Shown here: positions 1,317 to 57,898 of the stretch, piece after piece
Position numbering within the stretch: the stretch's first letter is position 1
Layout: every line of letters begins with the position of its first letter
Source: Patescibacteria group bacterium
Lineage (GTDB): Bacteria > Patescibacteriota > Minisyncoccia > Phycocordibacterales > JACZSL01
Direction of reading: 5' to 3'
Assembly (NCBI GenBank): GCA_022561335.1
Contig: JADFRL010000002.1
Coordinates: forward strand, 1-57,898
DNA: 57,898 nucleotides
Notes under the pieces: generated by a model
Databases searched by the model: none
Seen by the model: the letters and a program-made list of their open reading frames with translations, nothing else
Told to the model about the DNA's origin: nothing
Position numbers and translations under genes: made by a program

Positions 1317-2654
1317 ATGGAGGAGAGTAAGAAATCAGTGGCAGCGATTATAGTTTCTGTATTGGCTTTCATATTTTTTGGAAGCCTGCTTGCCATTGCA
1401 TGGAACGTTGCACAAGGTTTGTTTGCCGAAGGCGGTCTTGAGATAGTTGCTCTTAAAAATACCAATCTTGAGGAGAGTTTACTTTTTTATCTCTTTCTAG
1501 TAGGAATTGTAGCAGATGTGTTTTTCTCACTCTTTCTTTTTTTACTGTTGACCACCTATAGGCAAGCGGGATTTCTGGCGAGTCGTATGACCAGAGATTT
1601 ACTTGCTTCCCGTGAAATGTTTCTTCAACTCTACAACAACAGCCCTGTCCCGTACCTTTTAATTTCCAAAGATAGTAAAATTAACCTCCCCAACAAAGCC
1701 GCTCTTCGTTTGTTTGGGTTATCTGCGCAGGAACTTGAAGATCAAAATCTTCTGGATTTTTTTCTGGCAGATGATCTAGATCACGTCCAGACACTTCTTT
1801 CGCGTGTAAAAAATGGCGTGCCCTTTCATGAAGAAGAACTTCAAATAGTGCGCTCCGATGGAACGGTCCGTTGGGTTATCTTTTCAATGTTTTCGTTTAA
1901 AAGTGTGCCTGGTAAAAAATATAAAAGCGGACTTGCAACATTTGTGGATATTACCGAGCGTAAGGAAATAGAGAAAGTTAAAACCGAATTTGTGTCACTC
2001 GCGGCACATCAACTTCGCACTCCTCTCTCTGCGATCAAATGGTACACAGAGCTCCTCGCTTCAAAGGATGTGGGAGGGCTGACGCCCGAGCAAGAGAAGT
2101 ATCTTGAGAAAGTGTATGCGGGGAATGAGAGGATGATTGATTTAGTGAACACTTTTCTTAACGTGTCCAGACTTGAACTGGGAACACTCGCCGTTGATAT
2201 CAAACCAACGGATGTCGTTGAGCTTATGGAGAGTGTTTTTGAAGAGCTTGAAGTTCAAATTCAAGAAAAATATTTTAAACTCCATAAGGAGTATGATGAA
2301 AATATTGCTTTGGTGAATACTGATCCAAAACTGCTCCGTATGGTTTTTCAAAATCTGTTATCAAATGCCGTGAAGTATACACCCAAAGGGGGCGAATTGA
2401 GGGTAGAGATCAAAAAAAGAGGCTCTGAATTTCACATTATAGTGGAAGATTCAGGTTTAGGAATTCCTAAGAATCAACAGGATAAGATTTTTACGAAGCT
2501 CTTTCGGGCTGATAATGCACGTGCACTTGAAACAAAAGGCACGGGATTGGGTCTTTATATAGTAAAAATGATAGTAGAGAAATTCGGAGGTTCCATTAGC
2601 TTTACGTCGGAGCCCAACAAAGGGACCACGTTTAAGGCGGTGTTGCCACTTTGA
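1317..2654 (+). CDS. PAS-domain sensor histidine kinase
   Basis: N-terminal TM segments, PAS region, HisKA (AAHQLRTPLSAIKWY), HATPase (NLLSNAVKYTPKGG, DSGLGIP, GTGLGLYIVK). Confidence 0.9.
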   Translation: MEESKKSVAAIIVSVLAFIFFGSLLAIAWNVAQGLFAEGGLEIVALKNTNLEESLLFYLFLVGIVADVFFSLFLFLLLTTYRQAGFLASRMTRDLLASREMFLQLYNNSPVPYLLISKDSKINLPNKAALRLFGLSAQELEDQNLLDFFLADDLDHVQTLLSRVKNGVPFHEEELQIVRSDGTVRWVIFSMFSFKSVPGKKYKSGLATFVDITERKEIEKVKTEFVSLAAHQLRTPLSAIKWYTELLASKDVGGLTPEQEKYLEKVYAGNERMIDLVNTFLNVSRLELGTLAVDIKPTDVVELMESVFEELEVQIQEKYFKLHKEYDENIALVNTDPKLLRMVFQNLLSNAVKYTPKGGELRVEIKKRGSEFHIIVEDSGLGIPKNQQDKIFTKLFRADNARALETKGTGLGLYIVKMIVEKFGGSISFTSEPNKGTTFKAVLPL

Positions 2655-55482: not shown

Positions 55483-55600
55483 CAAAATTAGTTCCTTCTA
55501 TAATGCTTTAAAATAAGTGCCTGAAACATTATTCGTATCACTTGATAAGGAATGAGCAAAGAAAAATGATATTCGAGAAAGTCCGCTCAGGCGCGCGTAT

Positions 55601-56053
55601 TTGCTTCTAAACGTGAATAATCCAACTGAACTTTTCAATACATATTTGATAGAAGATCAGAAAATAGTTACATCTAAAATTTCTGATTATCATGATCCAA
55701 AACTTATTACAAACAAAGTAAGAAGCATATTAGAAAAGGTTGATGCTCGTAAGATAACAAAGGAAGAGCAACACGAACGGCGCTTAATATTATGGCTCTG
55801 GTATCACCACGCGATCAGCTATGCCGTGTGGGGATATAAAGATAAAAGACGAGCTCAGAAATACTCATCATTGGCTCTTAAATACCATCCTACGAATCAT
55901 CCCAATAAAATTACTCGCTTATTATATTTACTCGTACGTGATCGATTTGCAGAGGCAAATACATGGGCAAAAACTATCAAAAAAGAAAATTTAGGGCGTA
56001 CAACTGCATTTAAATTATTGAAATTCTACAAAAAAGGAGGATTTTTTAATTAA
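55601..56053 (+). CDS. hypothetical helical protein, paralog A flanking the RiPP-like precursor
   Basis: WYHHAISYAVWGYKDKRRAQ...HPTNHPNKITRLLYLLVRD; start may be GTG at 55613. Confidence 0.75.
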   Translation: MLLNVNNPTELFNTYLIEDQKIVTSKISDYHDPKLITNKVRSILEKVDARKITKEEQHERRLILWLWYHHAISYAVWGYKDKRRAQKYSSLALKYHPTNHPNKITRLLYLLVRDRFAEANTWAKTIKKENLGRTTAFKLLKFYKKGGFFN

Positions 56054-56149: not shown

Positions 56150-56308
56150 ATGAAAGACATTAAAGAGTTCGAAATAAACGAACGCACACCGCTTATGCTA
56201 CGGCGGATCGAGGAGAAGCCAGCGGTGACTCACCCAACCACGAACAACATGACGGTTGTGACGACTCCAGGTATGGAGCCCGAAATGCATGACCAAAAGG
56301 AAGATTAA
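56150..56308 (+). CDS. putative graspetide (ATP-grasp RiPP) precursor peptide
   Basis: 52 aa MKDIKEFEINERTPLMLRRIEEKPAVTHPTTNNMTVVTTPGMEPEMHDQKED; extended SD, downstream terminator, Thr-rich then Glu/Asp-rich C-terminal half, near an MvdD-like ligase. Confidence 0.6.
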   Translation: MKDIKEFEINERTPLMLRRIEEKPAVTHPTTNNMTVVTTPGMEPEMHDQKED

Positions 56309-56346
56309 CAGCGCGAAGGGTAGTTTTCTCCCTTTGTGCTCCAATA

Positions 56347-56376
56347 AAAGCCGCGATGAGTTTTCATCGCGGCTTT
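56347..56376 (+). terminator. terminator-like hairpin after the precursor ORF
   Basis: AAAGCCGCGATGA-GTTT-TCATCGCGGCTTT, 13-bp perfect stem. Confidence 0.8.
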
Positions 56377-56414
56377 ACTTATCAAATTATATTATGCTCT
56401 GCTATAATCAAAAT

Positions 56415-56915: not shown

Positions 56916-56932
56916 CAGCTTTTGGTCGTAAA

Positions 56933-56967
56933 AAAAAGCCGCGATAATGAAATCTCTGCGGCTTTTT
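56933..56967. terminator. bidirectional terminator between convergent genes
   Basis: AAAAAGCCGC ... GCGGCTTTTT. Confidence 0.75.
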
Positions 56968-56970
56968 CCC

Positions 56971-57898
56971 TTATACTTTCTTTCTTTCAAAAAGTGACTC
57001 GAGCATATCTGCTACGGCCTCAGGTATAGGAAGCTTAGCAAAGTCTGCAATCCAACCCCACTGTCCGGTTGGATTGACCTCTAAGAAGACAAAGTCTTCC
57101 TCGGGGGTCTCGATGAGATCTATCGCGCCGTATCGTAATCCAATTTTTTCCATGAAGCGCAGCAATTTCTGCTGAATATTTGCAGGTAGGTGAGATTGAA
57201 CGTGCGCCACATGCTCAAAGTCATAGTGCCGCCAGTCTACCTTTGTTGCTTCACTTGCTTGAGAATCTATTCTGCAAGACAGAACACGATTTCCAATTAC
57301 CATAACCCTGTGCTCGCAGTGTTTCTTTATGTATTATTGAGAGAAAATTGGGCACGCACGAATTGCTATACTTCTTTTAATCAACTCCTTGTGAGAAAAC
57401 CGTTGGGAGTAGAGAAAGTATCTTCCCTTATCGTCCAGACGAACATAACCAATTGACTTCAGCAAAAGTCCGTCGTGGTCATCAGAAAAGATTGTAACAC
57501 TCTCTGGATCGTTGCTTATCAATGTACGTGGTGCGATTAGACCGCACTGTTGTGCAATTAGCTGCTGATAGAGTTTGTTGCTTGCAAGAAAATCGACGGT
57601 CTCTTTCCGATTTACCCAAGAACATTCAAGGGTGGAAAGCAGAGAGCGGACAGCAGTCCGCGACTCGTTCTCAACGAATCGATCTTCAAGAGAGGAGCAC
57701 GTCGCTGTTGAGGAAACAGCACTCCCGCGTACATACCATGCAACATCAATGTCCGAGATAGGCAAGCGGAAACTCTCAGGCTCTCCCGTGTCCAATCTAA
57801 AGACATCGACGAAGCCAACAATATGACCTCCTTCATCCAAAGCTACACTAATCCTTTCTTCACTAGGGAAGCGCGAAGGGTCGAAAACATATATACAT
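56971..57898 (-). pseudogene. MvdC/MvdD-like graspetide ATP-grasp ligase, interrupted by an in-frame TAA and truncated by the window edge
   Basis: One open frame CIYVFDPSRFPSEERISVALDEGGHIVGF...IDVAWYVRGS...SWVNRKETVDFLASNKLYQQLIAQQCGLIAPRTLISNDPE...IFSQ[TAA]YIKKHCEHRVMVIGNRVLSCRIDSQ...DWRHYD...LRYGAIDLIE...FLEVNPTGQWGWIADF; the two track ORFs share one frame (57840-57303=537, divisible by 3). Confidence 0.8.

Follow-up and report, generated by a model that had tools for sequence, protein, structure and literature searches.

A single in-frame stop codon in a graspetide-type ATP-grasp ligase gene at a contig end of a Patescibacteria genome

Organisation of the locus

The window, i.e. the whole stretch of 57,898 nucleotides analysed, is a complete contig (C25) of a 667 kb draft genome (36 contigs, estimated 89.7% completeness and 4.3% contamination), and carries at its end an interrupted ATP-grasp ligase gene, a short precursor gene and two genes of TPR-like proteins (Table 1). 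Between the contig edge (57897) and its terminal TAA (56973-56971), the ligase frame on the minus strand contains one TAA, between CAA and TAC (TTC TCT CAA TAA TAC ATA AAG AAA CAC TGC GAG CAC AGG GTT ATG), and is otherwise open. The ORFs 57334-57897 (running off the contig edge; 57334-57840 in the TTG-started version) and 56971-57303 belong to this one frame, which gives 308 residues when read through; the first-pass annotation had described the two ORFs in the same way, and this description holds. Because the contig ends within the ligase gene, its promoter and about 28 residues of the N-terminus are absent.

Table 1. Features of the cluster at the contig end
Feature	Position	Strand	Basis
TPR-like protein 1, probable one-base frameshift	55556..56053	+	homology to TPR-like protein 2
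Graspetide precursor, 52 aa, MKDIKEFEINERTPLMLRRIEEKPAVTHPTTNNMTVVTTPGMEPEMHDQKED, with AAAGGAGGTGATCTCTTA just before	56150..56308	+	homology and core signature
Intrinsic terminator after the precursor	56345..56382	+	z = -7.1
TPR-like protein 2 (YHHAIS family), intact, 166 aa	56415..56915	+	ORF, homology
Intrinsic terminator of the ligase gene, GCCGC...GCGGC followed by 8 T	56925..56972	-	z = -4.5
Graspetide-type ATP-grasp ligase gene, interrupted once, 5' end lost at the contig edge	56974..57897	-	frame and profile matches
C-terminal part downstream of the stop, 120 residues and terminal TAA	56971..57333	-	ORF and profile match
In-frame TAA at the Glu (QEYI) position of the three nearest relatives	57334..57336	-	sequence, alignment of relatives
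N-terminal part upstream of the stop, 187 visible residues	57337..57897	-	ORF and profile match

The precursor gene, which has a strong Shine-Dalgarno sequence, is homologous to small genes adjoining three related ligases (L015, L016 and L003), and its product had no significant match among Pfam and NCBIfam families. A leader motif and a core of Thr/Ser and Asp/Glu residues, as expected for a graspetide cluster, are both present next to the ligase. Compared by eye, the core (T-VVT-T-PGMEPEMH-D-QKE-D) fits the pattern TxxxTx(6-10)Dx(1-4)D of the branch 1 graspetides of CPR bacteria (PMC8939145). The leader PLMLRRI resembles PFFARFL of microviridins, with Arg at an expected hydrophobic residue, and only approximates the pattern Phhx(1,2)h. 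The window precursor has a shorter C-terminal tail, ending in QKED-TAA (56303-56308), while three relatives go on with EDAT(R/A).

The two TPR-like proteins flanking the precursor are paralogues (46% identity), and homologues of them adjoin the L015 and L016 precursors. They were named for the tandem-helix look of their sequences and one weak match; neither had a significant Pfam or NCBIfam family. The homology of protein 1 to protein 2 begins at 55559, ahead of TTG 55601, the earliest start codon in its frame, and 14 residues of it (KKNDIRESPLRRAY) align with KKINIKKSPLKEAY, none of 20,000 shuffles being as good. An out-of-frame ATG at 55552 gives MSKEK and then a stop. A one-base change in the run of A at 55562-55566 is probably the simplest account of this gene start, although the frameshift may itself be an error, or the gene may start at TTG 55601. 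The earlier statement that no other lesion is visible is thus correct for the visible ligase but probably not for its cluster.

The contig end (52000-57898) has a lower and more uneven G+C content (0.33-0.39 versus about 0.42 elsewhere), as in an accessory region, and that of the ligase and precursor genes is 0.45-0.48.

Ligase family and relatives

With X placed at the stop, the ligase frame matched TIGR04187 (4.3e-56), TIGR04185 (7.6e-52) and TIGR04184 (1.2e-49) along its length. Each half alone matched the same NCBIfam families at complementary positions (58-197 and 204-312 of TIGR04187, 60-202 and 206-316 of TIGR04185), which bears out the proposal that a single TAA splits one ATP-grasp ligase. 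The families matched by both halves are graspetide (microviridin-type, MvdC/MvdD/SAV_5884) ATP-grasp maturases, and PDB matches were 7M4S, 5IG8, 5IG9 and 7MGV (AMdnB, the 5IG8/5IG9 ATP-grasp ligases and CdnC). The scores are below the NCBIfam equivalog cut-offs (176 versus 425 bits for MvdC, and 169 versus 475 bits), and those of the intact relatives L015 and L016 lie in the same range. Judged by its sequence, the window ligase is of the graspetide type and outside the named microviridin subfamilies. It has the full-length similarity to MvdC/MvdD/SAV_5884-type maturases that marks a graspetide synthetase but lacks the uninterrupted frame of an active ligase, and is a broken relative of these enzymes, not a working member. 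The ATP-grasp identity had been recognised from the start; the graspetide cluster, its precursor and the probable second lesion had been missed.

The C-terminal half was used to scan 84,980 genomes for relatives, and about 400 genomes of the order and about 400 of the class were scanned in addition; a scan of IMG/VR gave no relatives. The scans yielded two close relatives, L015 of Parcubacteria GW2011_GWA1_47_8 and L016 of Paceibacterota RS_9_47 (the same two genomes as G344 and G276), with 57-61% identity over the visible frame. Both are intact frames of 330 aa. At the site of the stop they encode Glu, as does the intact L003 ligase (46% identity); the codons there are GAG, GAA and GAA. The GAA to TAA change proposed by the first-pass annotation agrees with the Glu of these three relatives, although distant family members carry N, Q, K, P or T at this position, so that the ancestral codon is presumed rather than read. 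In the order and in the class alike, only about 6% of the genomes sampled have a close ligase.

The nearest known systems are the CPR graspetide clusters with TPR-repeat proteins, described as branch 1 by Makarova et al. (2022, PMC8939145), whose loci often encode such proteins; a cluster of this kind has therefore been known since 2022, and what is new here is a broken member. The window shares with them a CPR host, a graspetide-type ATP-grasp ligase, a short precursor whose core fits the branch 1 signature and TPR-like genes, and differs in the interruption of the ligase and in the duplication of the TPR-like gene around the precursor. The L015 and L016 loci have a homologous ligase convergent with the precursor, as in the window, and a YHHAIS TPR-like gene; in contrast to the window, their ligases are intact, a single TPR-like gene was seen next to the precursor, and the precursor is extended at its C-terminus by a tail (ATR...). 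MdnC, MdnB, MvdD, MvdC, AMdnB and CdnC (5IG9, 5IG8, 7M4S, 7MGV) are of the same ATP-grasp family, with motifs on both sides of the stop, but they are intact and act on another core peptide, and the window ligase scores far under their equivalog cut-offs.

Origin and consequences of the stop codon

The interrupted gene would belong to a small cluster of a Paceibacteria-like CPR genome, comprising the precursor, the two TPR-like proteins and a macrocycle-forming ATP-grasp ligase. By analogy with its family, the intact enzyme would bind the precursor leader (TPLMLRRIEE) and use ATP to join side chains of the core Thr residues to those of Asp and Glu (MTVVTTPGMEPEMHDQKED). The product would end before the second half of the ATP-grasp fold and so would lack this catalytic half entirely, with the conserved active-site residues Arg, Asp, Glu and Asn; no working enzyme would be expected. 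The C-terminal part of the frame still holds the conserved R, DWR, D, E, N and GQW residues; its earliest ATG (57303), 30 bases past the stop, lacks a good ribosome-binding site. A piece begun there would be without the conserved Arg, which, with the poor start, points to loss of function.

The probable explanation is that the ligase acquired a nonsense mutation recently, in a CPR graspetide cluster of a known type that may be decaying; among the options offered earlier, recent pseudogenisation likewise fits best. The window keeps 46 of the 50 residues invariant in three relatives in the N-terminal part and 57 of 63 in the C-terminal part, about as many as intact relatives do, so that any neutral drift would be short. 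About 4.2% of random substitutions would create a stop, and no second one is present, which limits neutral divergence since the loss to about 0.08 per site; the stop, if real, is therefore recent. A young loss is also indicated by the intact state of the precursor, of the terminator after the ligase and of every other ligase codon visible, and the probable frameshift of TPR-like protein 1 suggests that the cluster is starting to decay. Two other MAGs carry broken ligases too. Synonymous sites are saturated against all relatives compared, which makes dN/dS uninformative.

The main rival, possible though distinctly less favoured, holds that the population has an intact ligase and that the TAA arose by faulty sequencing or assembly, or belongs to a minority strain whose allele entered the consensus of the metagenome bin. 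The data come from a draft assembly in 36 contigs with an estimated contamination of 4.3%, the stop lies 562 bases from a contig end that leaves the gene start outside, and another suspect base change is found 1.8 kb from it. As a single assembled consensus at such a site, an assembly error or minority allele would look identical to a real mutation. The intactness of the rest of the visible frame and of the precursor agrees with this as well as with a young loss, and the well-conserved core and leader, as in a working pathway with a mis-called base, tell against pseudogenisation; broken ligases elsewhere also come from draft genomes. On the other hand, the stop is outside any homopolymer, no second copy or strain variant of the ligase was found in the bin, and codon usage and inspection of the ORF list revealed no similar lesion among the other 41 genes of the window. 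Pairs of frames that codon usage there suggested to be interrupted genes were judged by eye to be neighbours encoded separately or to involve an upstream open frame. The genome's long tRNA-synthetase genes each occupy one frame.

A functional meaning of the interruption is much harder to sustain. The TAA might be a standing off-allele: CPR graspetide ligases would be switched off and on repeatedly in populations, the peptide would serve as a weapon or in host interaction and vary between strains, and selection would maintain the precursor and partner genes. This is improbable. Still less credible is that reinitiation after the TAA yields two halves assembling into a working split ligase. Family conservation in both halves and the ATG shortly after the stop would suit it, but that ATG has no good Shine-Dalgarno sequence, the product would lack the YIKKHCEHR stretch together with the conserved Arg, and the break appears to lie within the ATP-grasp part and not at a domain boundary, judging from alignment to 5IG9 and 7M4S. 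Two separately encoded halves among relatives, which the first-pass annotation had named as a refutation of its own reading, occurred in none of about 52 ligases. Readthrough by a suppressor tRNA, recoding or a programmed event, giving a low level of full-length ligase, accords with the open and conserved frame past the stop, but is the least believable reading. TAA is the commonest stop of the 41 window genes (TAA 18, TAG 14, TGA 9), none of the 36 tRNAs found in this incomplete genome has a TAA-reading anticodon, and the stop is absent from all relatives. In bacteria, termination is efficient in its sequence context, TAAT.

The recognisable precursor places the gene in a graspetide cluster, and the damage is accordingly to be seen as that of a peptide pathway, either lost or mis-assembled, rather than of an unusual ligase standing alone. 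Should the loss be real, it would show that such accessory peptide clusters come and go in CPR bacteria, close ligases being present in few of the sampled genomes and a few of these ligases being broken.

Ligases and small genes in other genomes

About 53 ligase genes were considered in the order and class, and three of them are broken in sequence: that of the window, L089 (genome G406) and L059 (G382). L089 has an in-frame TAG at a nearly invariant Trp position near the C-terminus (about 1554, minus strand), and L059, from a genome with three ligase genes, has a frameshift between the N- and C-terminal parts (about 2040-2055, minus strand). Both are damaged at places other than in the window, whose stop is common to no relative. 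With so small a number and uncertain assembly quality, no excess of broken ligases is claimed.

Several other candidates were rejected. The stops flagged in G276 (TAA, L016) and G097 (TGA, L006) lie at the C-terminal end, the gene with a flagged TAG in G344 is the intact L015 frame, and the apparent frameshift of L060 (G299) is an N-filled scaffold gap.

Small genes near other CPR ligases (L017, 2330-2548, L018, 2358-2558, and L019, 4606-5067, on the plus strand; L005, 3122-3286, and L007, 3147-3299, on the minus strand) are candidate graspetide precursors, with microviridin-like leaders (PFPVRFAER, PLGILLSEE, PFLFHFMEA) and C-termini rich in Thr, Asp and Glu.
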